Origin: Phenylobacterium sp.
GTDB taxonomy: Bacteria > Pseudomonadota > Alphaproteobacteria > Caulobacterales > Caulobacteraceae
Assembly: GCF_013911965.1 (NCBI RefSeq)
Contig: NZ_JACESE010000002.1
Span: forward strand, 62,001 to 126,000
Direction: 5' to 3'
DNA: 64,000 bases
Below, one piece after another: positions 4,803 to 45,215 of this stretch (position 1 is its first letter; each line of letters starts with the position of its first letter). The position numbers were made by a program, and so were the translations under genes. The notes beneath the pieces are model-generated. The model searched no databases and was not told the origin of the DNA. It worked only from the letters and a program-made list of their open reading frames with translations.

Positions 4803-4805
4803 GGC

Positions 4806-4858
4806 GCATAGCCAAGCTATGCTTCACCAGGTAGCGTCCCCCTAAGGAAACTACCTGG
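4806..4858 (+). promoter_or_regulatory. Two tandem RNA hairpins before a small membrane-protein gene
   Basis: GCATAGC-CAA-GCTATGC (4806-4822) is a perfect 7-bp stem. CCAGGTAG/CTACCTGG (4827-4834 with 4851-4858) is a perfect 8-bp stem around a 16-base loop. The second reaches the Shine-Dalgarno (GGGGAGG, about 4857-4863) of the next gene. A loop segment TCCCC could instead pair with GGGGA, so two exclusive folds are possible. Neither hairpin has a T-tract. Regulation is inferred. Confidence 0.4.
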
Positions 4859-4868
4859 GGAGGCGGCG

Positions 4869-5240
4869 ATGATGATCCTGATCTCGGCATGGCTGGCGAT
4901 CGGATTCGGGGTGTTGGGCGCGGTGCTCGAGGTGCTCCGAAACTGGCCGGACTGGCAATGGTGGCCATTCTGGGTCGTAGACTATGTCGCCGCAGGCCTA
5001 TTGATTGTGGGCGGGGCGCTCGCGTTACGCCGGCGTGGCGAGCGCGTTCTCGCCGCCGGATGGGCCTTCGCCTGCGCCATGTTCTGGATGTCCTTCTTCG
5101 GCCATCTCAGCGGCCTCCGCGAAGCCGTGGAGGCTTCCGCGCGTGAGCAGAGACTGACCTTCATCATCGGCGTCATGTTCGCCGTGACCGCCGTCGGGCT
5201 CGTCCTGACCCTGCTCGGTCGGTCCCGTCGGGGGCCGTAA
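4869..5240 (+). CDS. Small integral membrane protein, function unknown
   Basis: 123 residues with about four hydrophobic segments: near 3-23, 33-53, 62-80 and 95-116, with a basic RRRGER loop after the second and a basic C-terminus. A strong Shine-Dalgarno GGGGAGG precedes the ATGATG start. It follows pleD by 66 bases containing two hairpins, so it may be cotranscribed with divK-pleD or attenuated. A clear terminator lies downstream. I do not recognise the family. Confidence 0.65.
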   Translation: MMILISAWLAIGFGVLGAVLEVLRNWPDWQWWPFWVVDYVAAGLLIVGGALALRRRGERVLAAGWAFACAMFWMSFFGHLSGLREAVEASAREQRLTFIIGVMFAVTAVGLVLTLLGRSRRGP

Positions 5241-5248
5241 GCCAACGC

Positions 5249-5280
5249 AAAAGGCCCGGCTGATCCAGCCGGGCCTTTTT
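5249..5280 (+). terminator. Rho-independent terminator, probably bidirectional
   Basis: AAGGCCCGGCTG-ATC-CAGCCGGGCCTT is a perfect 12-bp stem with A residues before and TTTT after. It lies between the convergent membrane-protein gene and rpmG and can serve both. Confidence 0.85.
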
Positions 5281-5304
5281 AAATCTCGCGTGTGCGAGGC
5301 GATC

Positions 5305-5472
5305 CTACTTGATCTTGCCTTCGCGGAACTCGACGTGCTTGCGCACGATCGGGTCGTACTTCTTCATGACCAGCTTTTCGGTCTTGGTGCGGGCGTTCTT
5401 CTTCGTCACGTAGAAAAAGCCGGTGTCCGCCGAGGAGTTCAGGCGGATCTTGATGGAAGCGGGCTTCGCCAT
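5305..5472 (-). CDS. rpmG: 50S ribosomal protein L33
   Basis: 55-residue ribosomal protein beginning [20 protein letters not shown] and continuing with [20 protein letters not shown], the standard bacterial L33 signature. It has no zinc-binding CxxC pairs, so it is the zinc-independent (C-minus) form. The length is normal. The stop is 25 bases from the shared terminator. A gap of 105 bases separates it from the pirin gene upstream. Confidence 0.96.
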
Positions 5473-5577
5473 AGTCGGTCCTCGCGGGGCCGGGCAAGCG
5501 CGCTTGCGCCGGCGGTCGTTCGTAAAGAGCCGCGGACAATACGAATCCGCAGACCAAAGTCAATGCAGGGCCGGGAC

Positions 5578-6408
5578 TTAGCGCGCCTGCGTCAGCCGGC
5601 CCGTCTGGTAGTCCGAAAACGCCTGGCGGATCTCGTCGACCGTGTTCATCACGAAGGGGCCGTGGGCGACCACGGGCTCGTCGATCACCGGCGCGGCGTA
5701 GAAGAGGGCGCGCAAGGGGGCGCGGGCGGTGAGCGGCAGCACGTCGTCGGCGTCTTGCGCGTGCGCCCAGGCGTGCTGGTCGGCCTTGACGACGGCGCCG
5801 CCCGCGCCGACCTCGGCCTCGCCCTCCAGCACCAGCAGGAAGCCGCGCCAGCCGTTGGCGAGCGGCAACTCCAGCCGCGCGCCGGCCTCCAGGCGCAGAT
5901 CCATCAGGGCCAGCGGCCAGAGGCTGCCGTGCGCCCGCTCGGCCGCGCCGAAGCGGCCGGCATAGAGGCGGACCTCGAAACCCTCGCCGGAGACGAGCGC
6001 CGCATCGGCCGCCCGCTGGTCGCTGTAGCGGGCCGGGCTCATCTTCTTGGCCGCCGGCAGGTTGAGCCACAGCTGAAGGGAGTGGACGCCCTGCGGCCCC
6101 GGCATCTCCGAATGCAGCACCCCGCCGCCGGCGGTCATGAACTGGATGTCGCCGGCCTCCAGCTCGCCGTGGGCGCCGGTGTGGTCCTCGTGGATCATCT
6201 GGCCTTCGAGTACGAAGGTCACCGTCTCCATGCCGCGGTGCGGATGGGTGGGGAAGCCGGCCGGCGGGGCGAACCAGTCCTCGGCCAGGAACAGGAAGGG
6301 GCAGTAGGGCGCGTGCTCGCGCGGCGCGATCACCAGCCGGTTCTGGTGGCGCGGCCCGACCATCTGGCGGGGACCGGCGGCTTCGATGCGGTCGACGGAC
6401 AGGGCCAT
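5578..6408 (-). CDS. Pirin-family bicupin protein
   Basis: 276 residues in the pirin/quercetin 2,3-dioxygenase-like family. The N-terminal cupin carries the metal motif FPTHPHRGMETVTF and later HSEMPG, giving the usual three His and one Glu. The C-terminal cupin region is less conserved, as is typical. The start MALSVDRIEA leaves eight bases after the flavin reductase gene, so the two form an operon. Pirins have been reported as quercetinases or redox-sensing cofactors; which applies here is unknown. The partner reductase suggests a role in quinone or flavonoid redox chemistry. Confidence 0.87.
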   Translation of the reverse strand: MALSVDRIEAAGPRQMVGPRHQNRLVIAPREHAPYCPFLFLAEDWFAPPAGFPTHPHRGMETVTFVLEGQMIHEDHTGAHGELEAGDIQFMTAGGGVLHSEMPGPQGVHSLQLWLNLPAAKKMSPARYSDQRAADAALVSGEGFEVRLYAGRFGAAERAHGSLWPLALMDLRLEAGARLELPLANGWRGFLLVLEGEAEVGAGGAVVKADQHAWAHAQDADDVLPLTARAPLRALFYAAPVIDEPVVAHGPFVMNTVDEIRQAFSDYQTGRLTQAR

Positions 6409-6416
6409 GGGCGACC

Positions 6417-6974
6417 TCAGGCGTTGATGCGGGCGATCCAGGCGGCGAACTTCTCCACCCACGCGCCGATGATCTGGCGGAACTTCGGGTCGGCGACCTC
6501 GCCCTCCGGCGAGAAGTGCTCGTCCCGATGGATGAAATAGAGTTGCGGCGCCCCCATGACGGCCATGTCGATGGAGAGCAGCACATTGCGCAGCTCCACC
6601 TGGGCCGCCGCCGTGCCCAGCGGGCCGGGGCTGGCGCCGACGACGGCCGCGGGCTTGCCGCGCCAGACCGACTGGCCGGCCGGCCGCGTGCCCCAGTCGA
6701 TGGCGTTCTTCAGCACGCCGGGCACGCCGCGATTGTACTCCGGCGTGACGAACAGCACCGCATCGGCGCCCGCCACCGCCGCCTTGAAGTCGGCGACGCC
6801 CTGCGGGAAATCCGCCTCCAGGTCCTGGTTGTAGAGCGGCACGGCCTCGATGCCGACGATCTGCAGGTCGAGCCGCGGGGCGGCCATCAGGGCGATGGCC
6901 TGGGCCAGCCTGCGATTGGCGGAGTCCTTGCGCAGGCTGCCGACGATGACGGCGACCTTGGGGCGTTCTGACAT
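6417..6974 (-). CDS. NADPH-dependent FMN reductase (ChrR/YieF-like quinone reductase)
   Basis: 185-residue flavodoxin-fold enzyme. FMN phosphate-binding loop GSLRKDSANRRLA near residue 13, substrate/FMN motif TPEYNRGVPGVLKNAIDW, and GASPGPLGTAAAQ are conserved with E. coli YieF/ChrR and Pseudomonas quinone reductases. Members transfer two electrons from NAD(P)H to quinones, azo dyes or chromate and protect against redox cycling. It lies directly upstream of the pirin gene and downstream of a Nudix hydrolase gene, all on the minus strand. Confidence 0.88.
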   Translation of the reverse strand: MSERPKVAVIVGSLRKDSANRRLAQAIALMAAPRLDLQIVGIEAVPLYNQDLEADFPQGVADFKAAVAGADAVLFVTPEYNRGVPGVLKNAIDWGTRPAGQSVWRGKPAAVVGASPGPLGTAAAQVELRNVLLSIDMAVMGAPQLYFIHRDEHFSPEGEVADPKFRQIIGAWVEKFAAWIARINA

Positions 6975-6999
6975 GGCGGCTCCGGTGGGCTGAGGGCGG

Positions 7000-7713
7000 C
7001 TAGAGATGCGCCATCTTATGGCCCTTCACGCCGAAGCGCATGAAGGGGGAGGGGCGTTCCGGATCTTCCAGCCGCCGGACCGCCTCCTCGATCATGGTGC
7101 GCGTCACCATGGGCAGCTGCAGGCCCAGCGCCTCGTCGAAATCGACCCAGGCGATCTCCTCCAGCTCGCCGCAGTCGGGCTGGCGGTCCAGGCTGATCAG
7201 CCGCTCGGCGTCGGCCATCAGGAACCAGGTGTCGAACCGCTTGGCCAGCATGGGCGGGGTGACGGCGCGGGCGATGATCTCCACGGCGTCCAGGTCGGGC
7301 AGGGCGCCCTGGGCCAGGAACTCCCGCCAGGGGCCGACGCCGGGCCGCGCGGGCGCGGCCTTGGCCAGCAGCAGGCCGGCCTCCTCCCAGGTCTCGCGGA
7401 TGGCGGCCAGCGCCAGGGCCCGCCCGCGGCCGGGCTTCAGGTGGCGGTCGAACTTGGCCTCCACCTCGGGCCGCAGGTCGGTGGCGTAGGGCGCGCGGAA
7501 GTCGGCCCGGTCGATGCGCCCGCCGGGAAAGACCCACAGGTTGGGCATGAAGTCGTGGCCGCTGTTGCGCCGGCCCATCAGGACCTGGGGCTTCTTGGCG
7601 TCACGCCGCACGAGGATGATCGTGGCCGCATCGCGCGGCTTGACGGCCCGTGTCCCCGGCGCACGCATCCGGCCCCCTTCGGGCCGGCGGGGAGTCGCTT
7701 CTGGTTCGCTCAT
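7000..7713 (-). CDS. Nudix hydrolase
   Basis: 237-residue Nudix-fold protein. The Nudix box appears as FPGGRID followed after an insertion by AAIRETWEEAGLLL; the REXXEEXG core for divalent metal is intact. The insertion and the C-terminal CxELEEIAWVDFDEAL stretch resemble the NUDT8/NUDT19 (CoA or ADP-ribose) group, so a nucleoside-diphosphate derivative is the likely substrate class. The first 20 residues are charged and low in complexity. It lies 25 bases upstream of the FMN reductase gene and may lead that operon. Confidence 0.84.
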   Translation of the reverse strand: MSEPEATPRRPEGGRMRAPGTRAVKPRDAATIILVRRDAKKPQVLMGRRNSGHDFMPNLWVFPGGRIDRADFRAPYATDLRPEVEAKFDRHLKPGRGRALALAAIRETWEEAGLLLAKAAPARPGVGPWREFLAQGALPDLDAVEIIARAVTPPMLAKRFDTWFLMADAERLISLDRQPDCGELEEIAWVDFDEALGLQLPMVTRTMIEEAVRRLEDPERPSPFMRFGVKGHKMAHL

Positions 7714-7834
7714 GAAACAATTGTATGAGACCGCCGCGACGGAGAGGAAGCGTGACGTTGGGGAAGGGGGGATGGTGGCGTCGGGAATATCCGCTTCCCG
7801 CCCGTAGGAACTTTCGGGACGTCAGCTTTCGGGC

Positions 7835-7847
7835 AGACTAATAGTCT
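7835..7847. repeat. Short inverted repeat before the RusA-like gene
   Basis: AGACT-AAT-AGTCT, a perfect 5-bp inverted repeat ending 22 bases before the start at 7870. It could be an operator; there is no direct evidence. Confidence 0.25.
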
Positions 7848-7869
7848 TTGGTTCGCCCTGCGCAAGGAT

Positions 7870-8745
7870 ATGAACACGTTGATCAGTCAGCGGGAATTCC
7901 ATGGAGATGAGGCGTTCGAGATCGAAGCGGCCGGAGCCAAGGCGGGCATCAATCCGATGTTCGGCGGGTGGAGCCAAAGGTTCGATTTCGCGCCCGTACC
8001 CCATCGGGGAACCGGTGGCGCCATTCGTCGCTCGTTCCAGGACGCGATCCGCGCCGAGTTGACCAACAAGTTCGCCTTCTGGGGGGAGGTGCGGGTCACA
8101 ATCACCCTGTACCTCGACGTGCAGACGGTCCTCGAGAGCTCTGATACAGCCGACGTCGACAACTACGCCAAAGCCATTCTGGATGCGATCAAAGGCCCCA
8201 ATGGCATCATCATCGATGATACTCAGGTGCAGGCTCTGACCGTCTCCTGGATCGATTCACACGTGATCTACTTCGAAGTGGAGATTCGCTCGTCACCCGA
8301 TTATTTCTTCATCAAGCCGATTGTGTTCTTTGAGATGCCTGACGGGCTCTTCTACCCACAGCCGTCCACGTCCTGGAGTCCCGACGGCCCAAAGGTCTAC
8401 ACTGACTTCGATCACTTTGCAGGCCTAACGATCTTGGAGATGAGTGCTGCGGGCAAGCGGCACATCCGCCATGTCCTGCGCCAGGGGGGGCAGACCCGGC
8501 TGCAGGCGTCGCGCAACAGCGCTTACTTCGAAACGCAGCTGAGGGGGTTCCATCGGAGCCGGCTCGCGGATTCTGGTTTCGACATGATTCCTATGGCCGA
8601 GTGGCGCGCCAAGCGCATGGCCTGGGCCGAGGGTGACCCAGAAAAGTCTAATTTCCTCACTGAAATGGCGGCTGAGTATCGCGACTCCATTGAGAAGCTC
8701 GCCGAGGCGATGGCTGCGGTCGAAGAGCCCCGCGCCGGCGGTTAG
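7870..8745 (+). CDS. RusA-like Holliday-junction resolvase fold protein with unknown C-terminal half
   Basis: 291 residues. Residues 30-130 resemble RusA: the signature reads D95-V-D97-N98, K101, D105 and, after a short loop, D116-D117-T-Q, in the spacing of RusA family active sites (D-x-DN...K...D...DDSQ). The half from about 135 on, with a WSPDGPKVYTDFDHF segment and a charged helical tail, is not recognised and is absent from canonical RusA (about 120 residues). Base composition is visibly more AT-rich than neighbours. AAGGA sits only one base before the ATG, so a TTG at 7879 is an alternative start. Probably horizontally acquired. Confidence 0.68.
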   Translation: MNTLISQREFHGDEAFEIEAAGAKAGINPMFGGWSQRFDFAPVPHRGTGGAIRRSFQDAIRAELTNKFAFWGEVRVTITLYLDVQTVLESSDTADVDNYAKAILDAIKGPNGIIIDDTQVQALTVSWIDSHVIYFEVEIRSSPDYFFIKPIVFFEMPDGLFYPQPSTSWSPDGPKVYTDFDHFAGLTILEMSAAGKRHIRHVLRQGGQTRLQASRNSAYFETQLRGFHRSRLADSGFDMIPMAEWRAKRMAWAEGDPEKSNFLTEMAAEYRDSIEKLAEAMAAVEEPRAGG

Positions 8746-8798
8746 GTTGGCAGCGAAGGGGGCGGCGATCGTGCGGCGCGGGCCGCCGCTGGGCCGGC

Positions 8799-9614
8799 TT
8801 AGACTGCCTCGAAGGTCACAGCGTAGCTCTTGGACTGGAACCGCGCCAGCCTCATCTCAAGTGGTCGACCTGACGCCGCCACCCACTCTTGGACGCGTTG
8901 TCGATCGTCTGCCGATACTCGCGCTCCGAGGATTACACCGCGAACGGCCTCCGCAGGTAAGCGAAACGGGCCGGACCACCACATTCCCACTGCCCGCCAC
9001 TCCTGCTCATAGTCCCATTCCGAGGACTTTCTCAGAAAAGCCAGTTCCTCAAGGGCAGTGACGTCCCTCACCATGTTGTAGCTCGCTCGTTCAGGCGAAT
9101 AGACGACCGGCAAGGGACACAGCGGCTTCAAGGCTTCAAAATCGAACTCTATGCAGACGCCGCGGTGGGCATCGCCGTAGTGAGACCACATCAGGTTGGA
9201 AGCGGGCTCGGCGCTGAGAGACAACACGCCCGTGTCCCGCAAGTTGTGGTCGTACGCGGCTTGGGCCACGCCATCGAAGCCCTCCTGCTGGATCCGCTTC
9301 CTCATCTCAATGCTGATCGCCGCAACGCGGGCTCGACGCGCCGCGCGGGACAAGTTGGGTTCGCGTCCCTTGGTCACCCAGGTCCAGAATGCCCTACGTT
9401 CGGCCGCGGAAGACTCAATAGTGTTGTGCGGCCGGCAATCGTAAGGGTCGTTCAGTTCGTCCGGTTTGGCAAAATACACCTCTGACCGGAGGATAATGGC
9501 CTTAGTGTAGTCCCCAGCGGTACCCTCAAGGCTTCGATATTTGTAGAGCCGTGGTGGCGGGTTCTGCCGCGCCAACGCCTCCGAATACCCTCTTGAGAAG
9601 ACAAACTCGGCCAT
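8799..9614 (-). CDS. DUF2971 family protein
   Basis: 271 residues matching the DUF2971 pattern: LYKYRSL near the N-terminus, VYFAKPDELNDPYDCR, VLSLSAEPASNLMWSHYGD followed by RGVCIEFDFE, then WDYEQEWRAV. The family occurs scattered in bacteria and phages; its activity is not established. It converges on the RusA-like gene across 53 bases and shares the lower GC, so the two look like one inserted unit. No signal peptide or membrane segment. Confidence 0.78.
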   Translation of the reverse strand: MAEFVFSRGYSEALARQNPPPRLYKYRSLEGTAGDYTKAIILRSEVYFAKPDELNDPYDCRPHNTIESSAAERRAFWTWVTKGREPNLSRAARRARVAAISIEMRKRIQQEGFDGVAQAAYDHNLRDTGVLSLSAEPASNLMWSHYGDAHRGVCIEFDFEALKPLCPLPVVYSPERASYNMVRDVTALEELAFLRKSSEWDYEQEWRAVGMWWSGPFRLPAEAVRGVILGARVSADDRQRVQEWVAASGRPLEMRLARFQSKSYAVTFEAV

Positions 9615-9776
9615 TGCCCGCCCTCGGCCATTTGAAGTTGGACAGTTGTTGCATGCTTCCGTCAGTTCGGCAGCACGAATGGGGCTCGCGTTACCGGTCC
9701 AATGTCCGGTTGACGGTTCGAAGCCAAGTTCCGCAACTGGCGCTCAGCGGAACCTGCGCGGCCTTGACACAGCCCC

Positions 9777-12065
9777 CTACCGCCGCTTCCCCCTGCCACT
9801 CCGCCCCGCCGGCGGGGGCCTGCCCACCTTGCGGCGCACGCCCAGCCTCGGCCGCGGGGTCGTGGGGTCGGGCGGGGCGGCGTCGCTGAGCATTTCGAAG
9901 AGGAGGCCGCCGGTGATGGGGGTGGCTTCGCGCAGGCGGACCTCGACGCTCATGCCGAGCGGCCAGCGCTCGCCGGTGCGCTCGCCCACCAGGGCGTGCA
10001 TGCGCTCGTCGTGGACGAAGAATTCCCCGCCCAGGCTGGAGACGGGGACGAGGCCGTCGGCGCCGGTCTCGGCCAGGCGCACGAAGAGGCCGAAGCGGGT
10101 GACGCCGGTGATCCGTCCCTCGAAGGTCGCGCCGACCCGGTCGGACAGGAAGGCGGCGATGTAGCGGTCGGTGGCGTCGCGCTCGGCGGCCATGGCGCGG
10201 CGCTCGGCGGCGGTGATCTCCTCGGCCGTCGCCTTCATGTGCGAGATGTCCCAGTCCGACAGGCCGTCCGGCGCGCCGGGCAGGTTGAGGCCCAGCGCCG
10301 TGATCAGGGCGCGGTGGACGATCAGGTCGGCATAGCGCCGGATCGGCGAGGTGAAGTGGGCGTAGCGGTCCAGGTTCAGGCCGAAGTGGCCGATATTGTC
10401 GGTGTTGTAGTGGGCCTGCATCTGGGTGCGCAGGACCACCTCGTTGACGATCTCGGCGTGCGGCCCCTCGCGGGTCAGCTCCAGCAGGCGGTTGAAGCGG
10501 TCGGTGCGGACGGCCTCGCCCTTGGACCAGCTGACGCCGATGGAGCCCAGGAATTCGGCCAGGCTGTCCAGCTTCTCCGGGCTCGGCGCATCGTGGACGC
10601 GGTAGACCAGCGGCGTGCGCTTGGCCTCCAGGCTCTCGGCCGCCGAGACATTGGCCTGGATCATCATCTCCTCGATCAGCCGGTGGGCCTCCAGCGAGGC
10701 CCGCGGCGTGATGGAGGCGACCTCGCCCTTCTCATCGATGACGATCTTGCGCTCCAGGCTCTCGATGGCGAGCGGCGAGCGGGCGAGCCGGCCCTTGAGC
10801 ATGGTGTGATAGGCGGCCCACAGGGGCTTCAGGATCGGCTCCAGCAGGGGACCGGTCTTGTCGTCGGGCTGCCCGTCGATGGCGGCCTGGGCCTGTTCGT
10901 AGGAGAGCTTGGCGGCCGAGCGCATCAGGCCGCGGACGAAGCGGTGGCTGCGCTTCCTGCCCGTCTTGTCGAAGACCATGCGCACGGCCATGCAGGCGCG
11001 GTTCTCGCCCTCGCGAAGGGAGCAGAGGCCGTTGGACAGCCGCTCGGGCAGCATGGGCTCGACCCGGTCGGGGAAGTAGACGCTGTTGCCCTTCTCGCGC
11101 GCCTCGCGGTCCAGCGCGCTGTTGGGGCGGACGTAGGCGGCGACATCGGCGATGGCGACCCAGACCACGTGGCCGCCGGGATTCTTCGGATCATCGTCGG
11201 GGTGGGCGTAGACGGCGTCGTCGTGGTCGCGGGCGTCGGCCGGGTCGATGGTGATGAGCGGCACGTCGCGCAGGTCTTCGCGGCCGGCCAGCTCCGGCGC
11301 CTTGGCCGCTTCGGCCTCGGCTTCCGCCTCGTCGGAGAAGCCGGTGGGGATGCCGTGGGTGTGGATGGCGATGAGGCTGGCGGCGCGGGGCTGGTCCTCG
11401 CGGCCGACCACCTCCAGCACCTTGCCGCGCTTGGGGCCGTGCCGCCGCTCGGCCGTGCCGACCTGGGCCAGCACCAGGTCGCCGTCCTTCAGCTGGCCGT
11501 CGTCGAAGACGATCAGGCTCTCCTTGGACTTGCGGTCCACCGGCTCGATGCGGGTCTCGCGGCGCGCCTTGCGCACCACGCCCAGCACCCGGTGGGCGCT
11601 CTGGCCCAGGCGCTTGATCAGGCGGGCCTCGGTCTCGCCGTTCTCCAGTTCGACGAAGCGGACCAGCAGGCGGTCGCCCAGGCCCGGCGCGCCCGTCACC
11701 GCCTCGCCGCGCTCCGGCGCCAGCCGGACGAGCGGGGTGTCCTCCGCCCCCTTGGTCAGGCGCACCAGCAGTTCGCCGTCGGGATCGCGCTCCACCACGT
11801 CGACCACGCCGACCGGGGGCAGGGCGCCCGGCTGGGCCACGCCCTTGCGCCCGCGCTTGGCGAGGGTGCCCTCGTCCTGCATTTCCTGCAGCATCTGGCG
11901 AAGCGCCCGGCGGTCGGCGCCCTTCAGGCCGAAGGTGCGGGCCAGTTCGCCGCGGTCGGTCTCGCCCGTCTCGCGGATGTGACGCAGCAGGGTTTCGCGG
12001 TCGGGCAATCCTTGGGCCTTCGGGGCCTGGAAGCGCTGGGATTTCGGCGTGCGGGTCTTGGCCAT
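9777..12065 (-). CDS. rnr: Ribonuclease R
   Basis: 762-residue processive 3'-5' exoribonuclease of the RNB family, which degrades structured RNA and in the family works with SmpB/tmRNA on stalled messages (smpB is at 58.9 kb). An N-terminal winged-helix region (about 20-85), cold-shock-like domains, the catalytic RNB domain with IDPADARDHDDAV (metal-binding Asp residues), and a C-terminal S1 domain from about 655 (FEGRITGVTRFGLFVRL) are visible. It ends in a basic tail. The start MAKTRTPKSQ matches usual length. The AAA ATPase gene ends 33 bases upstream. Confidence 0.96.
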   Translation of the reverse strand: MAKTRTPKSQRFQAPKAQGLPDRETLLRHIRETGETDRGELARTFGLKGADRRALRQMLQEMQDEGTLAKRGRKGVAQPGALPPVGVVDVVERDPDGELLVRLTKGAEDTPLVRLAPERGEAVTGAPGLGDRLLVRFVELENGETEARLIKRLGQSAHRVLGVVRKARRETRIEPVDRKSKESLIVFDDGQLKDGDLVLAQVGTAERRHGPKRGKVLEVVGREDQPRAASLIAIHTHGIPTGFSDEAEAEAEAAKAPELAGREDLRDVPLITIDPADARDHDDAVYAHPDDDPKNPGGHVVWVAIADVAAYVRPNSALDREAREKGNSVYFPDRVEPMLPERLSNGLCSLREGENRACMAVRMVFDKTGRKRSHRFVRGLMRSAAKLSYEQAQAAIDGQPDDKTGPLLEPILKPLWAAYHTMLKGRLARSPLAIESLERKIVIDEKGEVASITPRASLEAHRLIEEMMIQANVSAAESLEAKRTPLVYRVHDAPSPEKLDSLAEFLGSIGVSWSKGEAVRTDRFNRLLELTREGPHAEIVNEVVLRTQMQAHYNTDNIGHFGLNLDRYAHFTSPIRRYADLIVHRALITALGLNLPGAPDGLSDWDISHMKATAEEITAAERRAMAAERDATDRYIAAFLSDRVGATFEGRITGVTRFGLFVRLAETGADGLVPVSSLGGEFFVHDERMHALVGERTGERWPLGMSVEVRLREATPITGGLLFEMLSDAAPPDPTTPRPRLGVRRKVGRPPPAGRSGRGKRR

Positions 12066-12098
12066 TGCGCCTTGTAACGCGGGAATCGCCCGGGCGCT

Positions 12099-13235
12099 TC
12101 AGTCGTCCTCGTCCCGGAAGGCGCCGAACAGGGTCAGGCCCGCGATCTGGGTGGCGCCGTCGACCTTGCGCACCGTGCGCACCGAGCCGTGGGCCTCCAG
12201 CGCCTGGGCCAGGCGCTCGGAGTGGGTGACGAGCCAGACCTGCGAGCGCTCGGCCGCCTTGCCGATCAGGCCGGCCAGCGGCGCGGTCAGGTCCGGATGC
12301 AGGCTGGCCTCCGGCTCGTTGAGCGCGATGAAGGGCGGCAGGCGGTAGGCCAGCAGCGCGCCGGCCAGCGCCAGGAAGCGCAGGGTGCCGTCCGACAGCT
12401 CGGCGGGTTCGAACACGCGCTGGGGGAACTCCGGCAGGCTGAGGCCGAAGCTCGCCTGGCGCTCGGGCATGGGGATCGACAGCCGCGCGCCCGGAAAGGC
12501 TTCGGCGACGGCGGCGGCCAGATCGGCGGCGTCGCCGCGGATGTGGGCCAGGGTCGCGAACACCGCGGCCAGGTTGGCGCCGTCGGAGGCGAGCGTCGGC
12601 GTGGCCACCGCCGTGCAGGGCCGGCGCAGGGGCGAGTCCGCGTCCGTGCGCATCTGATGATAGAAGCGCCACTCCAGCAGCGTGCGGCGCACCTGATCGA
12701 GCTCCGGATACCGCGACGGATCCTCCAGCCGCCCCAGCAGGGTCTCCGAGGCCAGCAGGTCGAGGTCGATCTCGGCGGGCCGCCCCTCGGCGTCGCGGGC
12801 CATGACGGCGTTGTTGCGCCGCTCCACCAGCTTCACGCGGCGGGAGCCGGTCTCGTAGGTCAGGGCTTCCAGCTTGATCTGCGGCTCCAGCCCGAAGGCC
12901 GCCGCGGTGACGAGCTGCGGGAAGCCGACCTCCACTTCGTAGCGATAGGCGCCGCTGCGCTGGCCCGGCGCGGCCAGGGTGACGGAAAGGGCGATGCGCG
13001 CCGGCTCCCGCGCCCGGCGGGGCCCGGCCCACATGGCCTGCGACAGGCCCTCCTCGGCGAGGCGTTCGCCCAGCCGGTTCTGGGCGGCGGCCTGGAGCAG
13101 CTCCAGCCCCCGATAGAGGTTCGACTTGCCGACGCCGTTGGCGCCGACGAAGACGTCGAGCCGCGACATCGGATAGGTGATCCGCTGCAGCGACCGGTAG
13201 CCCGAGGCGGAGAAGTCGCGGACGGGCAGGTCCAT
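12099..13235 (-). CDS. AAA-family ATPase (RecF/SMC-like, AAA_21 type)
   Basis: 378 residues. Walker A GANGVGKS (31-38) follows a FSASGYRSL start typical of single-chain ABC-like ATPases. The signature-like LSDGTLRFLAL, the Walker B region FIALNEPEASLHPDL and the switch WLVTHS are in the C-terminal half. The middle 200 residues form the insert, without a long coiled coil. Related proteins include OLD-less ATPases and the Abi-type AAA_21/AAA_15 group, but this one sits between topA and rnr in a housekeeping run, seven bases after topA, so it is more likely chromosomal maintenance than defence. Substrate unknown. Confidence 0.82.
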   Translation of the reverse strand: MDLPVRDFSASGYRSLQRITYPMSRLDVFVGANGVGKSNLYRGLELLQAAAQNRLGERLAEEGLSQAMWAGPRRAREPARIALSVTLAAPGQRSGAYRYEVEVGFPQLVTAAAFGLEPQIKLEALTYETGSRRVKLVERRNNAVMARDAEGRPAEIDLDLLASETLLGRLEDPSRYPELDQVRRTLLEWRFYHQMRTDADSPLRRPCTAVATPTLASDGANLAAVFATLAHIRGDAADLAAAVAEAFPGARLSIPMPERQASFGLSLPEFPQRVFEPAELSDGTLRFLALAGALLAYRLPPFIALNEPEASLHPDLTAPLAGLIGKAAERSQVWLVTHSERLAQALEAHGSVRTVRKVDGATQIAGLTLFGAFRDEDD

Positions 13236-13241
13236 GGCGGG

Positions 13242-15881
13242 CTAGCTGGCCGCCGCCTTCTTGGCGGCCGGCTTCTTCGCCGCCGGCTTCTTGGCCGCGG
13301 CCTTCTTGGCGGGCGCCTTCTTCTCCGCCGCGGCCTTGGCGGGCTTCTCGGCCTTCGGCTTGGCGGCCTTCTTCGCCGGCTTCTTGCCCCCGCCCTTGGC
13401 CTCGCGCTCGGCCAGCAGGGCGACGGCCTGTTCCAGGGTGATCGCCTGCGGGTCGCCGCCGCGCGGGATGTTGGCGTTGGTCGAGCCGTGCTTGATGTAG
13501 GGGCCGTAGCGGCCCGACAGCACCCGCACCGGCGCGCCGTCGGCCGGGTGGGCGCCCAGTTCCTTCAGCGCCGCGGCCTCGCCGCGCCGGCCCTTGCCGC
13601 CGGCCTTCTTCTCGGCCAGCAGGGCCACGGCCCGGTTCAGGCCGACCTCGAAGACCTCGTCGACGTTCTCGAGGTTCGCATAGGTCCCGTCGTGCTGGAC
13701 GAAGGGCCCGTAGCGGCCGATGCCGGCCAGGATCGGCTTGCCGTCCTCGGGATGGTCGCCGACCTCGCGCGGCAGACGCAGCAGACGCAGGCCCTTCTCC
13801 AGGTCCATGGCCGCGGGCGACCAGGTCTTGGGCAGGCTGGAGCGCTTGGGCTTGTCGCCCTCGCCGAGCTGCACATAGGGGCCGAAGCGGCCGCTCTTCA
13901 GGAAGACGACGAGGCCGGTCTCGGGATCGGTTCCCAGCTCCCGGTCGCCGTTCGCCGCATCGGCCTCTTCGCCGTCGGGCTGGGCGATCGGGCGGGTATA
14001 GCGGCACTCCGGATAGTTGGAGCAGCCGATGAAGGCGCCGAACTTGCCGGTCTTCAGCGACAGCCGGCCGGTCCCGCAGGTGGGGCAGGCGCGGGGATCG
14101 GTCCCGTCGGCCCGTTCGGGGAAGATGTGGGGCCCAAGGGCGTCGTTCAGGGCGTCGAGCACATTGGTGACGCGCAGCTCGGAAATCTCGCCGACCGCGG
14201 CCTGGAAGTCCTGCCAGAAGTCGCGCAGCAGCACCTTCCAGTCGAGGTCGCCGGCCGAGACCTGGTCGAGCTTCTCCTCCAGCGCGGCGGTGAAGTCGTA
14301 CTCCACATAGCGGCGGAAGAACTGCTCCAGGAAGGCGGTGACCAGCCGGCCCTTGTCCTCGGGGATGAAGCGGTTCTTCTCCATCCGCACATAGGCGCGG
14401 TCGCGCAGCACGGTCAGGATCGAGGCGTAGGTGGAGGGGCGGCCGATGCCCAGCTCCTCCATCTTCTTCACGAGGCTGGCTTCGGAATAGCGCGGCGGCG
14501 GTTCGGTGAAGTGCTGGGCGGCGCGGGCGGCGGCCACGCGGGCCTCGGCGCCCTCCTTGACCAGCGGCAGGCGGCCGGACTCCTCGTCGTCCGGGTCGTC
14601 GCGGCCTTCCTCGTAGACCGCCAGATAGCCGTCGAAGAGGATCACCTGACCGGTGGCGCGCAGGCCGGTCTGGCCGTCGGCGCTCTCCAGCTCGATGGTG
14701 GTCCGCTCGATGCGGGCGCTCTCCATCTGGGAGGCGATCATCCGCTTCCAGATCAGCTCGTAGAGGCGGCCCAGATCGCCGTCCAGGCGAAGGGAGCCGG
14801 GGTTGCGGGCCAGGCTGGTGGGGCGGATCGCCTCGTGGGCCTCCTGCGCGTTCTTGGCCTTGGTCCGGTACAGGCGGGCCTGTTCGGGCACATACTCGCG
14901 GCCATAGATGCCGCCGATCACCTGGCGGGCCTCGTCGATGGCTTCCGGGGCGGCCTGAACGCCGTCGGTCCGCATATAGGTGATCAGACCCACCGTCTCC
15001 CCGCCGATGTCCACGCCCTCATAGAGCTTCTGGGCGGCCTGCATGGTGCGTTGGGCGGAGAAGCCGAGCTTGCGGGCGGCCTCCTGCTGCAGGGTCGAGG
15101 TGGTGAAGGGCGGGGCGGGGGCGCGCTTGCCGGGCTTCTTCTCGACCGAGGCGACCTTGAAGCTCGCCCCCTCGACGGCGGCCTTGGCGGCCATGGCCGA
15201 GGTTTCGTCCGCCAGGTCGAACTTGGTCAGGCGCTTGCCCTGATGCTTGACCATGCGCGCGACGAAGCTTTCGCCGCCGGAGGCCATGTCCGCCTCGACC
15301 GTCCAGTACTCCTGGGTCTGGAACCGCTCGATCTCCAGTTCCCGGTCGACGATCAGGCGCAGGGCCACCGACTGCACCCGGCCGGCCGATCGCGAGCCGG
15401 GCAGCTTGCGCCAAAGCACCGGTGAGAGCGTGAAGCCCACCAGATAGTCGAGCGCGCGGCGGGCCAGGTAGGCCTCGACCAGTTCCATGTCGAGGTCGCG
15501 CGGCGACTTCATCGCCTCGGTGACAGCCGACTTGGTGATGGCGTTGAAGACGACGCGCTGGACCTGGGCGTCCTTCAGGACACGCTTCTTCTGCAGCACC
15601 TCCAGCACGTGCCAGGAGATGGCTTCGCCCTCGCGGTCGGGGTCGGTGGCGAGGATCAGGCGGTCGGCCTTCTTCACCGCCTCGGCGATGTCGGACAGCC
15701 GCTTGGACGACTTCGCGTCGACGTCCCAGCTCATGGCGAAGTCTTCGTCCGGACGCACCGATCCGTCCTTGGGGGGCAGATCCCGCACATGGCCGTAGGA
15801 GGCGAGGACGACATAGTCGCCGCCCAGATACTTGTTGATGGTCTTGGCCTTGGCCGGGCTCTCGACGACGACGACGTTCAT
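13242..15881 (-). CDS. topA: DNA topoisomerase I
   Basis: 879-residue type IA topoisomerase relaxing negative supercoils. The Toprim domain begins at once (VVVESPAKAKTINKYLG; DPDREGEAISWH), followed by the active-site segment LITYMRTDG with the catalytic Tyr. One four-Cys zinc motif (CPTCGTGRL...CSNYPEC) and three C-terminal repeats (GRFGPYVQ, GRYGPFVQ, GRYGPYIK) follow. The last about 47 residues are almost only Lys, Ala and Pro, a basic tail as in actinobacterial and alphaproteobacterial TopA. The start MNVVVVES was chosen over an upstream ATG because it aligns with the family. A dprA gene follows upstream, as in many relatives. Confidence 0.96.
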   Translation of the reverse strand: MNVVVVESPAKAKTINKYLGGDYVVLASYGHVRDLPPKDGSVRPDEDFAMSWDVDAKSSKRLSDIAEAVKKADRLILATDPDREGEAISWHVLEVLQKKRVLKDAQVQRVVFNAITKSAVTEAMKSPRDLDMELVEAYLARRALDYLVGFTLSPVLWRKLPGSRSAGRVQSVALRLIVDRELEIERFQTQEYWTVEADMASGGESFVARMVKHQGKRLTKFDLADETSAMAAKAAVEGASFKVASVEKKPGKRAPAPPFTTSTLQQEAARKLGFSAQRTMQAAQKLYEGVDIGGETVGLITYMRTDGVQAAPEAIDEARQVIGGIYGREYVPEQARLYRTKAKNAQEAHEAIRPTSLARNPGSLRLDGDLGRLYELIWKRMIASQMESARIERTTIELESADGQTGLRATGQVILFDGYLAVYEEGRDDPDDEESGRLPLVKEGAEARVAAARAAQHFTEPPPRYSEASLVKKMEELGIGRPSTYASILTVLRDRAYVRMEKNRFIPEDKGRLVTAFLEQFFRRYVEYDFTAALEEKLDQVSAGDLDWKVLLRDFWQDFQAAVGEISELRVTNVLDALNDALGPHIFPERADGTDPRACPTCGTGRLSLKTGKFGAFIGCSNYPECRYTRPIAQPDGEEADAANGDRELGTDPETGLVVFLKSGRFGPYVQLGEGDKPKRSSLPKTWSPAAMDLEKGLRLLRLPREVGDHPEDGKPILAGIGRYGPFVQHDGTYANLENVDEVFEVGLNRAVALLAEKKAGGKGRRGEAAALKELGAHPADGAPVRVLSGRYGPYIKHGSTNANIPRGGDPQAITLEQAVALLAEREAKGGGKKPAKKAAKPKAEKPAKAAAEKKAPAKKAAAKKPAAKKPAAKKAAAS

Positions 15882-41707: not shown

Positions 41708-41932
41708 TCAGACGCGTTCGGGCGGGTCCGGCGTTTCCTCGGCGGGCTCGCCCAGGTCCGTCTCCGGCGCGGTCCTGTGGCCCAGCTTCTTCACATAGGC
41801 CTCGTGTTCCTTGACCAGCTCGGACGGCTGGGGATGCGGCTCGTCGGCGTCGATCCCGTACTCCTGGCCACGGTAGCCGGCCTCGATGTTCGGGTCCTGG
41901 GGGTCGGCCTTCGGGGGCGGGGTGTCGGCCAT
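41708..41932 (-). CDS. Small hydrophilic hypothetical protein
   Basis: 74 residues, rich in Pro, Glu and Asp, without hydrophobic stretches: MADTPPPKADPQDPNIEAG, YGIDADEPHPQPSELVKEHE, then TDLGEPAEETPDPPERV. Disordered by composition. The start ATG was chosen over a long upstream extension. It begins the stress-related neighbourhood and is divergent from nepR. An EcfG-like promoter with a poor -10 lies upstream. No recognised family. Confidence 0.55.
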   Translation of the reverse strand: MADTPPPKADPQDPNIEAGYRGQEYGIDADEPHPQPSELVKEHEAYVKKLGHRTAPETDLGEPAEETPDPPERV

Positions 41933-42071
41933 GGAAGCGCCTCGCTTTCGGCTGAAGTCGGTGGTCTGAGGGAAATGGCTTGCGACCTTCTGTCGTTCCG
42001 TGCGCCAGACGACATTAACCCTTCGCCTTGACCATATTCCTGGTAAACCGCACGCGGTTCGCGAGGACATC

Positions 42072-42254
42072 ATGGCTAACAGAAAAGACCGTAAGCGGCG
42101 CGTGCAGGCGCTGGGCGAGAACCTCCAGGCCATGTTCCGCGATCTCAGCGCCCGCCCCATGCCGGACCGGATCGCCTCTGTCGTCGATCAGCTCGAGGGC
42201 GGGGAGCCTCAGGCCGCTTCGGACGGGCCCCCCCTGCGTTCTAGGCTGAATTGA
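42072..42254 (+). CDS. nepR: Anti-sigma factor NepR
   Basis: 60 residues. NepR binds and inhibits EcfG and is sequestered by phosphorylated PhyR in the alphaproteobacterial general stress response. The core LGENLQAMFRDLSARPMPDRIASVVDQLE matches the two-helix NepR family pattern (LGxxLRxxYxxVxxEPVPDRFLxLLxxLE). GCGAGGACATC precedes the ATG. It converges on ecfG, overlapping it by 14 bases at the 3' ends. In Caulobacter nepR and sigT run in the same direction, so this organisation differs. No phyR is seen in the window. Confidence 0.75.
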   Translation: MANRKDRKRRVQALGENLQAMFRDLSARPMPDRIASVVDQLEGGEPQAASDGPPLRSRLN

Positions 42255-42786
42255 CCGCGTCGGAGGCCGGCGCGCCGTCGGCCATCACGTCGGTGGCGTC
42301 GCCGGCGTCCATGATTTTCAGGAGCCGGGCGCGGGCGCGGTTCACGCGGCTCTTGATGGTCCCGAGAGCGCAGCCGCAGATTTCGGCCGCCTCCTCATAG
42401 GAAAGACCCGCGGCGCCGACCAGGATCAGCGCCTCGCGATGCTCGTCGGGCAATTGCGCCAGGCCGATCTGCAGCGCGTGCAGCGCCACGCTCCAGTCCT
42501 GGGTGGGCGGCGACTTCAGCATGCGCGCGTAGTCGCCGTCCTCGTCGCGCACCTCGCGGCGGCGGCGCACGACATTCGTGTAGTAGGTGTTGCGCAGGAT
42601 GGTGAAGAGCCAGGCGCGCAGGTTCGAGCCGGGCTCGAACTTATCCTTGTTGGCCCAGGCCTTGATCAGCGTGTCCTGCACCAGGTCGTCGGCGTCCGAG
42701 CCGTTGTGGCACAAGGACCAGGCGAACGCCCGAAGCGCCGGAATCATGGCGACCACATCGTCTCGCCACTCGCTGCGCGTGGTCAT
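42241..42786 (-). CDS. ecfG: RNA polymerase sigma factor EcfG (general stress)
   Basis: 181-residue ECF sigma factor of the EcfG (SigT) type. Region 2 (about 14-80): LRAFAWSLCHNGSDADDLVQDTLIKAW, then NLRAWLFTILRN; region 4 (about 110-165): LPDEHREALILVGA, SYEEAAEICGCALGTIKSRVNRARARL. It directs stress genes with GGAAC...GTT promoters. A perfect GGAAC-N16-CGTT promoter lies 59 bases upstream of its own start, so autoregulation is likely. The start MTTRSEWRDD has GAGGG ahead. It diverges from egtBD. Confidence 0.93.
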   Translation of the reverse strand: MTTRSEWRDDVVAMIPALRAFAWSLCHNGSDADDLVQDTLIKAWANKDKFEPGSNLRAWLFTILRNTYYTNVVRRRREVRDEDGDYARMLKSPPTQDWSVALHALQIGLAQLPDEHREALILVGAAGLSYEEAAEICGCALGTIKSRVNRARARLLKIMDAGDATDVMADGAPASDAVNSA

Positions 42787-42844
42787 CGAACCCTCGAATA
42801 CATACTGGCTCGCCCCGTCACGAAGGTCGCCCCGGATAAGCTGC

Positions 42845-42869
42845 AACGTGGCGGCCGACCTTCCGTTCC
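42845..42869 (-). promoter_or_regulatory. EcfG-type promoter of ecfG
   Basis: Minus-strand GGAAC (42869-42865), 16 bases, CGTT (42848-42845): exact match to the general stress consensus GGAAC-N16/17-CGTT. It would start transcription about 50 bases ahead of the ecfG ATG. Confidence 0.8.
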
Positions 42870-42903
42870 GGGTTGCAAGCGCGACGCCAGGGCCCATTTT
42901 TGG

Positions 42904-42928
42904 GGAACGCCGTTCGCCTCTGTGCGTT
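42904..42928 (+). promoter_or_regulatory. EcfG-type promoter of egtBD
   Basis: Plus-strand GGAAC (42904-42908), 16 bases, CGTT (42925-42928): exact consensus, 70 bases before the TTG start of egtBD and 34 bases from the divergent ecfG promoter. Confidence 0.8.
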
Positions 42929-42998
42929 CGTCACCATCCTGGGGAGGCGTCTGCGGTCCTGCGCACGCGCCGCTCCATCGACCACGGGGAGGGGAGCC

Positions 42999-45215
42999 TT
43001 GGCGCCATCGGATGACGCACCGGCCATCGACAGGCCGTCGAGGGCGGTCGATGCACGACTGGCCCGGTTCCTGGAGACCCGCGCGCGGACCGAGTGGCTG
43101 GCGCGCGAGCTGACGCCCGAAGACCAGTGCGCGCAGTCGATGCCCGATGCGAGCCCGACCAAGTGGCACCTCGGCCACGTCACCTGGTTCTTCGAGACCT
43201 TCCTGCTCAAGCCGCACCTGCCGGGCTATCGCCCGTTCGACGAGCGGTTCGGCTATGTCTTCAATTCCTACTACGAGGCGCTCGGCCCGCGTCAGCCCCG
43301 GCCGCAAAGGGGCCTGCTGACGCGCCCGCGGCACGAGCGGGTGATGGCCTACCGGGCGCATGTGGACGAGGCCATGACGCGCCTGCTGCTGAGCGAGGTC
43401 GCCGGGCTCGATCCTCTGGTCGATCTGGGGCTGGCGCATGAGGAGCAGCATCAGGAACTGATCCTGATGGACATCCTCCACCTGTTCGCCCAGTCGCCGC
43501 TGAAACCGGCCTATGGCCATGGCTCGCCGGCGCCGGCCGCCGATCCCGGGGCGATGGGTTTCGTCGGCTTCGACGGCGGGCTGGTGGAGATCGGCCATGA
43601 GGGAGCGGACTTCGCCTTCGACAACGAGGGGCCGCGCCACAAGGTCTATCTGGAGCCGTACCGCCTGGCCGACCGGCTGGTCACCAACGCAGAGTGGCTG
43701 AGCTTCATGGCGGAGGGCGGCTATGGGCGGCCCGAATTCTGGCTTTCCGACGGTTGGGCCCTGGTCCAGGCCGAAGGCTGGCGCGCGCCCGCCTACTGGG
43801 AGCCGGGCCCGGACGGCGCCTGGCGCGAGATGAGCCTGCACGGGCTTCATCCCCTCGATCCGCACGCGCCGGTCGCCCATGTCAGCTACTACGAGGCCGA
43901 CGCCTACGCCGCCTGGGCCGGGGCGCGCCTTCCGACCGAGGCGGAGTGGGAGGCGGCGGTCCAGGGGCGCGCGCCCGAGGGCAACTTCATCGGCCGGGCC
44001 ACGCCGCAGGTGCGAAGCGCCGAGGGCGGGGGCCTGCGCCAGATGTTCGGCGATCTCTGGGAATGGACGCGCAGCGCCTATGGCCCCTATCCCGGCTTCG
44101 CCCCGGCCGGCGGCGCCGTGGGCGAGTACAACGGCAAGTTCATGAGCGGACAGATGGTGCTGCGCGGCGGCGCCTGCGTCACGCCGCCCGGCCATGTCCG
44201 GGCCACCTATCGCAACTTCTTCCACCCCCATCAGCGCTGGATGTTCTCCGGGGTCCGCCTGGCCAAGGACGGCAAGGGCGATGACGCGGTCCGTCCCGCC
44301 AGCGAGTTCGAGCGCGACGTGCTGAGCGGGCTGGCGAAGCCCCAGAAGGCCGTGCCCCCCAAGTACTTCTACGACGCCGAGGGCTCGCGGCTGTTCGAGG
44401 AGATCTGCAAGCTCCCGGAGTACTATCCGACACGGACGGAGATCGCGCTGCTCAAGGACGCCGCGGGCGAAATCGCCGCCTACATTCCCGACGGGGCGGC
44501 CCTCGTGGAGTTCGGCAGCGGCGCCAGCGTGAAGACCCGCGCCCTGCTCGATCAGGCCCCGCAGATCGGCCTCTACACGCCCATCGACATCAGCGGGAGC
44601 GCCCTCGCCGAAGCCACGGAGAGGCTCCAGGCCGACTATCCGGCCCTGGCGGTCGCGCCCCTGGAAGACGACTTCACGACGGCCTTGACCCTGCCGGCGG
44701 CCACCCAGGGACGGCCCCATGTCGGCTTCTTCCCGGGCTCGACCATCGGCAATCTCGACCCCCGCGAGGCGGTCGAGTTCCTGGCCAACGCCAGGCGGCT
44801 GCTCGGCGAGGGATCACGCTTCCTCGTCGGCGTCGATCTTGTGAAACCGGAAGATGTGCTGATCGCCGCCTATGACGACGCCCAGGGCGTGACGGCGGCC
44901 TTCAACCTGAACCTGCTGACCCGCATCAACCGGGAGCTGGACGGCGACTTCGACCCCGATGGCTTCGCTCACCGGGCGCGGTGGAATTTGGAGGCCTCCC
45001 GCGTGGAGATGCATCTGGAGAGTCTGCGCGACCAGACGGTCCGCGTCGCCGGACGGGCCTTCCGCTTCGCCCCGGGCGAGACGGTCCACACGGAGAACTC
45101 GCACAAGTTCGCGCCCGAGGCCTTCGAGGCTCTGGCGCGAAAAGGGGGCTGGCGGCTGGAGCGGCGCTGGATCAGCGCCGCGCCAGCCTTCGGGCTGTTT
45201 CTGCTGGCGGCCTAG
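42999..45215 (+). CDS. egtBD: EgtB-EgtD fusion: ergothioneine sulfoxide synthase and histidine trimethyltransferase
   Basis: 738 residues, one open frame. Residues 1-425 are EgtB: DinB-like helical domain with the iron ligands around H57/H60 and H147-EEQ-H151-QE, then the FGE-sulfatase-like domain (about 170-425). Residues 430-738 are EgtD: LPEYYPTRTE, LVEFGSGASVKTRALLD and the SAM region FFPGSTIGN. The fungal enzyme Egt1 has the opposite order. The TTG start follows GGGGAGGGGA. EgtD would trimethylate histidine and EgtB attach sulfur, making the thiol antioxidant ergothioneine. An EcfG promoter lies upstream. Confidence 0.9.
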   Translation: MAPSDDAPAIDRPSRAVDARLARFLETRARTEWLARELTPEDQCAQSMPDASPTKWHLGHVTWFFETFLLKPHLPGYRPFDERFGYVFNSYYEALGPRQPRPQRGLLTRPRHERVMAYRAHVDEAMTRLLLSEVAGLDPLVDLGLAHEEQHQELILMDILHLFAQSPLKPAYGHGSPAPAADPGAMGFVGFDGGLVEIGHEGADFAFDNEGPRHKVYLEPYRLADRLVTNAEWLSFMAEGGYGRPEFWLSDGWALVQAEGWRAPAYWEPGPDGAWREMSLHGLHPLDPHAPVAHVSYYEADAYAAWAGARLPTEAEWEAAVQGRAPEGNFIGRATPQVRSAEGGGLRQMFGDLWEWTRSAYGPYPGFAPAGGAVGEYNGKFMSGQMVLRGGACVTPPGHVRATYRNFFHPHQRWMFSGVRLAKDGKGDDAVRPASEFERDVLSGLAKPQKAVPPKYFYDAEGSRLFEEICKLPEYYPTRTEIALLKDAAGEIAAYIPDGAALVEFGSGASVKTRALLDQAPQIGLYTPIDISGSALAEATERLQADYPALAVAPLEDDFTTALTLPAATQGRPHVGFFPGSTIGNLDPREAVEFLANARRLLGEGSRFLVGVDLVKPEDVLIAAYDDAQGVTAAFNLNLLTRINRELDGDFDPDGFAHRARWNLEASRVEMHLESLRDQTVRVAGRAFRFAPGETVHTENSHKFAPEAFEALARKGGWRLERRWISAAPAFGLFLLAA

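Follow-up and report, generated by a model that had tools for sequence, protein, structure and literature searches.

Back-to-back EcfG-type promoters between a second ecfG gene and a fused ergothioneine gene in Phenylobacterium

The ecfG2-egtBD locus

We analysed a 64,000-nucleotide stretch of Phenylobacterium sp. DNA (contig NZ_JACESE010000002.1; hereafter the window) in which three genes lie together: nepR2 (42072..42254, plus strand), ecfG2 (42241..42786, minus strand) and egtBD (42999..45215, plus strand). The 738-aa product of egtBD is an ergothioneine sulfoxide synthase (EgtB) fused to a histidine N-alpha-methyltransferase (EgtD); it scores 574.2 bits against TIGR03440 (cut-off 360) and 397.5 bits against TIGR03438 (cut-off 290.9), passing both equivalog cut-offs. 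Its TTG start, which follows a GGGGAGG-like ribosome site, was picked by eye, and many relatives show ATG at the same aligned place. A search for EgtE returned four generic PLP-enzyme matches, the best at 102.2 bits against 400, and the last step of the pathway was not placed. Fused EgtB-EgtD proteins also occur in Pseudomonas, Luteibacter and other beta- and gammaproteobacteria at 57-61% identity (among the best 80 of 565 relatives), hinting at horizontal spread.

On the other side of the intergenic gap, ecfG2 encodes an ECF sigma factor of 181 aa with matches to Sigma70_r2, PhyR_sigma2 and Sigma70_r4_2. It has regions 2 and 4 only and is closest to EcfG proteins, the features by which an EcfG (ECF15-type) sigma factor is recognized. 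Behind it lies nepR2, encoding a 60-aa NepR-like anti-sigma candidate, which was absent from the initial annotation; the two genes are convergent and their 3' ends overlap by 14 bases. Divergent from nepR2 and upstream of it is an acidic, proline-rich frame of 74 aa (41711-41932, minus strand), for which no Pfam or NCBIfam match was found at an E value of 0.001.

The start codons of ecfG2 (ATG, 42786, minus strand) and egtBD (TTG, 42999, plus strand) are separated by a 212-base gap carrying two exact copies of GGAAC-N16-CGTT. The first, GGAAC GGAAGGTCGGCCGCCA CGTT, lies on the minus strand in front of ecfG2 (42845..42869, read 42869-42845), and the second, GGAAC GCCGTTCGCCTCTGTG CGTT, lies on the plus strand in front of egtBD (42904..42928), the -35 boxes of the opposed sites being 34 bases apart. 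These coordinates and strands, the 34-base spacing and the length of the gap agree with the initial annotation. A GGAAC-N16/17-CGTT site in front of a gene is the sequence mark of an EcfG-dependent promoter, and both genes have one. No sigma-70-type promoter was found between 41900 and 43100. Two repeats were noted in the gap, a direct one of 8 bases and an inverted one of 11 bases (42822-42832 / 42853-42863). A pattern scan of 41900-43100 gave three terminator-like hairpins against a shuffle mean of 0.5; a hairpin at 42287..42308 (plus strand), called from the pattern scan alone, lies 33 bases past the nepR2 stop, within the 3' part of ecfG2.

Conservation of the paired sites and of the gene pair

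We assembled 114 loci from the best 80 of 565 confirmed egtBD relatives, obtained by a scan of genome contigs, together with ecfG relatives found by genome search. Because these loci were picked by protein, the motif was not selected for. In 62 of the 114 the sigma factor is at least 58% identical to that of the window, and 51 loci were left after removal of near-identical upstream DNA. The sigma-side site is exact in 48 of the 51 (it is missing in L146, L198 and L208). An egtBD match lies within the locus in 45 of the 51, and 30 of these 45 loci, which hold both egtBD and ecfG2, have an exact egtBD-side site. Exact sites on both sides are found in 29 of the 51, so that the divergent pair which the initial annotation proposed to look for in related genomes does recur there. 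By raw counts, the 15 egtBD sides without an exact site comprise 12 with a one-mismatch site (spacer 16 or 17) and three with none; 11 of the 12 one-mismatch sites retain both AAC and CGTT. The sigma-side sites show an extended pattern, cCGGAACGG, which is less clear on the egtBD side.

The initial annotation considered two such sites very unlikely by chance. This does not follow from the window as a whole, where GGAAC-N15-18-CGTT occurs three times against 1.16 expected and at least three matches were reached in 11 of 100 shuffles. The window-wide count is by itself unremarkable, and the weight rests on position and conservation. Genome-wide, GGAAC-N16-17-CGTT gives 68 matches against 16 for a reversed control pattern. 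Counted over the 260 bases that precede the sigma gene, the 51 loci contain 80 exact sites against 0.17 expected from mononucleotide shuffling, and the reversed pattern gave two matches in the upstream regions of these loci. It is these related promoter regions that bear the statement out: chance, which the shuffles of the window taken alone would tolerate, is a negligible explanation for them.

The two sites could also be read as a single inverted operator, GTTCC-N34-GGAAC, bound by an unrelated dimeric regulator, as the half-sites are inverted and close. Among the 29 two-site loci, the distance between -35 boxes falls into two clusters that together take in 26 loci (32-36 bases in 20, 21-23 in six), as might be seen with an operator. 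Of the remaining loci, one has a distance of 14 bases and one of 18, so that the distances span 14-36 overall; in L045 there are two sites on the egtBD side, of which one lies past the sigma-side box, and the script's choice there gave -27. The two sites thus move independently, as two promoters would. Each site also keeps its own CGTT at N16 or N17, an exact egtBD-side site is absent from 19 of the 48 loci whose sigma-side site is exact, and the egtBD site is kept in Caulobacter-titled loci (among the best 80 of 565) that have no ecfG2 next to it. We consider the dyad operator very improbable and, on the conservation and spacing in the 51 loci, rejected it together with chance. The paired sites are real and conserved.

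The gene pair itself was surveyed in 149 Caulobacteraceae genomes, of which 43 carry a sigma factor of the window's type (E<=1e-50) and 94 carry egtBD (E<=1e-200). Of the 34 genomes holding both, 32 have them as divergent neighbours, with 212-442 bases between the matches; G005 and G061 hold both genes, but not in this arrangement. Nine genomes with the sigma factor were counted as lacking egtBD, and in four of these (G010, G027, G040 and G044) a weaker egtBD match flanks ecfG2. Among the loci, the flank of ecfG2 yielded no egtBD match in L145, L148, L155, L163, L198 and L208, and no shared divergent partner was seen among the two longest divergent frames of each of these six. By eye, L155 and L163, both of genus g15, have a common same-strand upstream frame, and L145 (G038, no egtBD) has a same-strand frame upstream of ecfG2 that resembles a HisKA_2-type kinase, the kind present at the canonical locus described below. 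Conversely, L028 has both exact back-to-back sites before egtBD, and no ecfG match was found in that locus at an E value of 1e-3.

The back-to-back layout as such is not unique to the ecfG2-egtBD gap. An exact back-to-back EcfG pair, irrespective of the genes flanking it, occurs at least once in 199 of 299 Caulobacteraceae genomes; the reversed control gave a pair in one of the 299 (G072, by eye).

A second EcfG lineage with a convergent NepR-like gene

The canonical locus of the general stress response (GSR) lies elsewhere in the genome, on contig C30, and comprises phyR, nepR, ecfG1 and a HisKA_2 kinase gene; the PhyR protein has PhyR_sigma2, PhyR_sigma-like and receiver domains, and NepR scores 59.2 bits. 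The genome has one full-length PhyR only. Two EcfG sites, C30:60860 (minus strand) and C30:60928 (plus strand), are located between phyR and nepR. The surroundings resemble a stress island: nine EcfG sites fall within C30:53709-63538 (about 3700-13600 of locus L019, which covers C30:50000-68000), among genes that include a SOD-like gene (by eye), two DUF1328 genes, phyR and nepR-ecfG1-kinase. This genome has other back-to-back EcfG pairs at C30:57714/57765 and C3:101409/101452.

The initial annotation took the sigma factor beside egtBD to be "the" general stress sigma factor. We had to abandon this identification: the canonical phyR / nepR-ecfG1 locus on C30 rules out the window's sigma factor as the master GSR sigma factor, the window's protein is 47% identical to EcfG1, and it belongs to a separate lineage. 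Its best PDB relative, with 168.7 bits, is 5uxx_A, which we take to be Bartonella RpoE in complex with NepR; this compares with 147.5 bits for the canonical EcfG1 of the genome. A tree of 42 EcfG proteins sets EcfG2 on a long branch, in a clade apart from the SigT-type and SigU-type proteins with support 100/100; this clade consists of 21 EcfG2 rows and the very long branch L204 (G014). In a class-wide tree, EcfG2 groups with 5uxx and with 11 of the 14 EcfG rows that represent other families of Alphaproteobacteria, and the split from the Caulobacteraceae SigT/SigU group has support 97/79, with a warning from the program that long branches meet. The names SigT and SigU in the sampled genomes (L202 and L203 being SigU-type) are tentative and were given from NepR neighbour and genome position. 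SigU as the identity of the window's sigma factor was ruled out by its separate clade in both trees. Since it groups with EcfG proteins yet falls outside the SigT/SigU group, the ecfG2 product is, by its sequence, an EcfG of a second lineage, neither SigT nor SigU.

Half of the completed alphaproteobacterial genomes have at least two EcfG-like copies (PMC3892343), and PMC4814048 calls the roles of additional EcfG and NepR copies largely elusive. Like SigU of Caulobacter crescentus and EcfG2 of Sphingomonas and Sphingopyxis, the window's sigma factor is a second EcfG paralog beside a canonical one. The promoter of sigU carries the SigT motif (PMC3073932), and both SigU-type genes that we examined have an exact EcfG site upstream. 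The window's sigma factor differs from SigU in its separate clade, its NepR-like neighbour and its linkage to egtBD; Sphingomonas proteins are not knowingly among our tree rows.

This likeness raises a hierarchy of the SigU kind, in which EcfG1 would drive ecfG2 and egtBD, EcfG2 would act as a mild amplifier and NepR2 would have no effect on EcfG2. Precedent exists: according to the available part of PMC4814048, the master sigma factor transcribes both sigU of Caulobacter and ecfG2 of Sphingomonas, whose products do not bind NepR and whose deletion gives no obvious phenotype. Against it, the window's sigma factor lies outside the SigU-type clade and has a NepR-like neighbour, whereas two genomes holding a SigU-type gene (G096 and G134) have one NepR apiece, beside the canonical sigma factor. 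We consider such a hierarchy unlikely.

The NepR-like nature of nepR2 is supported by profile comparison. The window's protein scores 21.6 bits against PF18557, under the cut-off of 25.7, and its relatives in G011 and G005 exceed that cut-off in whole-genome scans of 15 genomes. Among ten sampled NepR2 copies, five (including the G011 and G005 genes) score above the cut-off, and three have no NepR hit. A profile of 29 NepR2 rows, from which four weak ones had been left out, aligned to 11 canonical NepR cores with an hhalign probability of 96.4 (E 1.1e-9), against a probability of at most 5.0 in 30 column-permuted controls. Across 70 pairs of nepR2 genes, codon third positions vary most (1095 differences versus 701 and 614), which fits a coding gene; among changed codons, nonsynonymous changes outnumber synonymous ones (962 versus 559), the pairs not being independent.

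In 33 of 62 loci, near-duplicates included, a profile grown from nepR2 found a relative behind ecfG2 on the opposite strand; it found none on the same strand. The 33 include four weak matches (L038, L159, L200 and L052), and the profile gave no match in the other 29 ecfG2 loci. The 3' ends of nepR2 and ecfG2 overlap in many loci, and an exact EcfG site upstream of nepR2 was found in none of the 33. Canonical loci are built differently: nepR is upstream in the sigma operon, and in 13 of 14 an exact EcfG site stands on the nepR side of ecfG1, 282-346 bases upstream. Other alphaproteobacterial families were sampled through 14 EcfG loci in 13 genomes. Ten of these loci have a NepR-like gene upstream, on the same strand in nine (L247 being weak, at 10.1 bits) and on the opposite strand in one (L238), and none of the 14 has one convergent at the sigma 3' end. 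No NepR-like gene was found in the other four; the only match in L240 is inside the sigma gene, and in L239 a match of 7.5 bits at a distance of 1.8 kb was disregarded.

The initial annotation knew of no published example of this layout. For the exact egtBD/ecfG pair this still stands: in the literature, for the most part openly readable main texts, we found no description of egtBD beside ecfG or of nepR convergent with ecfG. Back-to-back EcfG promoters, on the other hand, are usual at phyR / nepR-ecfG loci, where nepR-ecfG is mostly divergent from phyR and both units are under EcfG-dependent promoters, as set out in the accessible text of PMC4814048. The window's locus is like the phyR / nepR-ecfG (sigT) locus in having such promoters for a sigma gene and its divergent neighbour, and a nepR at the locus. 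The differences are that the neighbour here is egtBD and there phyR, and that nepR2 is convergent and has no exact EcfG site. As far as the literature covered here shows, the conserved egtBD / ecfG2 / nepR2 module, with its NepR-like gene convergent to ecfG2, seems to be new.

Candidate users of the promoters and a model of the module

We considered which sigma factor would read the egtBD promoter. Among the best 80 of 565 egtBD loci, 52 do not have ecfG2 beside egtBD. An exact EcfG site precedes egtBD in 15 of 16 Caulobacter-titled loci of this kind, in none of five Asticcacaulis-titled loci, in none of 21 beta- and gammaproteobacterial loci and in one of ten others, all counted within the same best 80. 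Nine of those ten are titled Alphaproteobacteria, Caulobacterales, Caulobacteraceae or Phenylobacterium and one Proteobacteria; L062 holds ecfG2 and is hence outside the group. With one site in ten, EcfG control of egtBD would not be general even within the order.

Two genera illustrate the question. In genus g22, an exact egtBD site is present in 10 of 10 genomes without ecfG2 beside it, and genus g22 does not occur among the 43 genomes with a sigma factor of the window's type. Because the site is kept without ecfG2 beside it in Caulobacter and g22, the canonical EcfG would be expected to read it there. In the window's own genus, g1, the exact egtBD site is present in 12 of 14 genomes with ecfG2 and in none of four without, the genomes being related and the counts not independent. 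Three of these four ecfG2-less egtBD genomes hold a NepR, and the g1 pattern would therefore fit EcfG2, not EcfG1, as the user of the egtBD site in that genus. As the two patterns point opposite ways, we kept both sigma factors as possible users. At an E value of 0.001, NepR matches were absent from all 19 genomes sampled from g14, a genus that may be Asticcacaulis, from all four g20 genomes and from five of the ten g1 genomes picked, suggesting that the canonical general stress response has been lost or strongly changed in g14, g20 and part of g1.

Given the conserved promoter positions, the EgtB and EgtD cut-offs passed and the 15 of 16 Caulobacter sites (best 80 of 565), EcfG control of ergothioneine synthesis is likely. 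The link between a stress sigma factor and egtBD drawn in the initial annotation is thus retained, with the correction that the adjacent sigma factor is not the master EcfG. Its proposal that this sigma factor transcribes its own gene becomes one option; EcfG1 driving ecfG2 is another. Autoregulation is known for ecfG2 of Rhizobium etli (PMC3892343).

Taken to its extreme, use by EcfG2 would mean a private circuit in which EcfG2 alone uses both promoters and is held by NepR2, apart from the master EcfG1. The g1 pattern, the single site in the ten other ecfG2-less loci, the cCGGAACGG extension favouring the sigma side and the NepR-like partner of EcfG2 would all be in keeping with this. Yet the core motif is identical in the genome's own phyR / nepR-ecfG1 gap, the site persists without ecfG2 in the Caulobacter-titled loci and throughout g22, and the relatedness of the g1 genomes means that their counts do not represent independent events. 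Such full separation strikes us as improbable. A related proposal, which we rate somewhat higher but still as doubtful, is a self-contained EcfG2/NepR2 switch for ergothioneine, possibly a bistable stress branch, with its input coming from the genome's one PhyR or from a different signal. EcfG2 would activate itself and egtBD, and the anti-sigma factor NepR2 would not be co-induced, unlike in canonical nepR-ecfG operons. Read-through from ecfG2 would be antisense to nepR2, so activation would lower the switch's own inhibitor.

We favour a model in which the locus is an accessory GSR module, and regard it as probable: back-to-back EcfG promoters would co-induce egtBD and ecfG2. Upon stress, active PhyR would take NepR off the master EcfG1, encoded at the C30 locus, and EcfG1 holoenzyme would fire both the egtBD and the ecfG2 promoter. 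EcfG2, by its family an expected reader of the same GGAAC-N16-CGTT motif, would then reinforce both, a combination of feed-forward and self-activation, and the convergent NepR2 would bind and restrain EcfG2. Ergothioneine would be predicted to rise under stress as a result.

That ergothioneine genes can belong to the GSR has precedent: egtB and egtD are in the GSR regulon of Sphingopyxis granuli TFA, as defined by RNA-seq of sigma mutants (PMC7083833). There, ergothioneine genes are likewise under EcfG control, but egtB and egtD are separate genes (SGRAN_4050 and SGRAN_4049), numbered far from the ecfG locus with nepR2 (SGRAN_1162) and phyR2 (SGRAN_1164), and the accessible text of PMC7083833 does not describe a back-to-back sigma gene beside them. 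In Methylobacterium, egtBD is required for ergothioneine, and resistance to heat, UV and H2O2 has been connected with it, the egtBD mutant being sensitive to heat and irradiation; the genes there are tandem and unfused (PMC4621440). The available text of that paper has no occurrence of PhyR, 'stress response', sigma or promoter.

The pairing of ecfG2 with egtBD in many relatives suggests that production of this antioxidant belongs to the stress response, and in Caulobacteraceae it offers a conserved connection of ergothioneine with the general stress response. It also suggests a possible reason for keeping a second EcfG copy, namely that it is tied to one protective enzyme and to its own convergent NepR-like protein.
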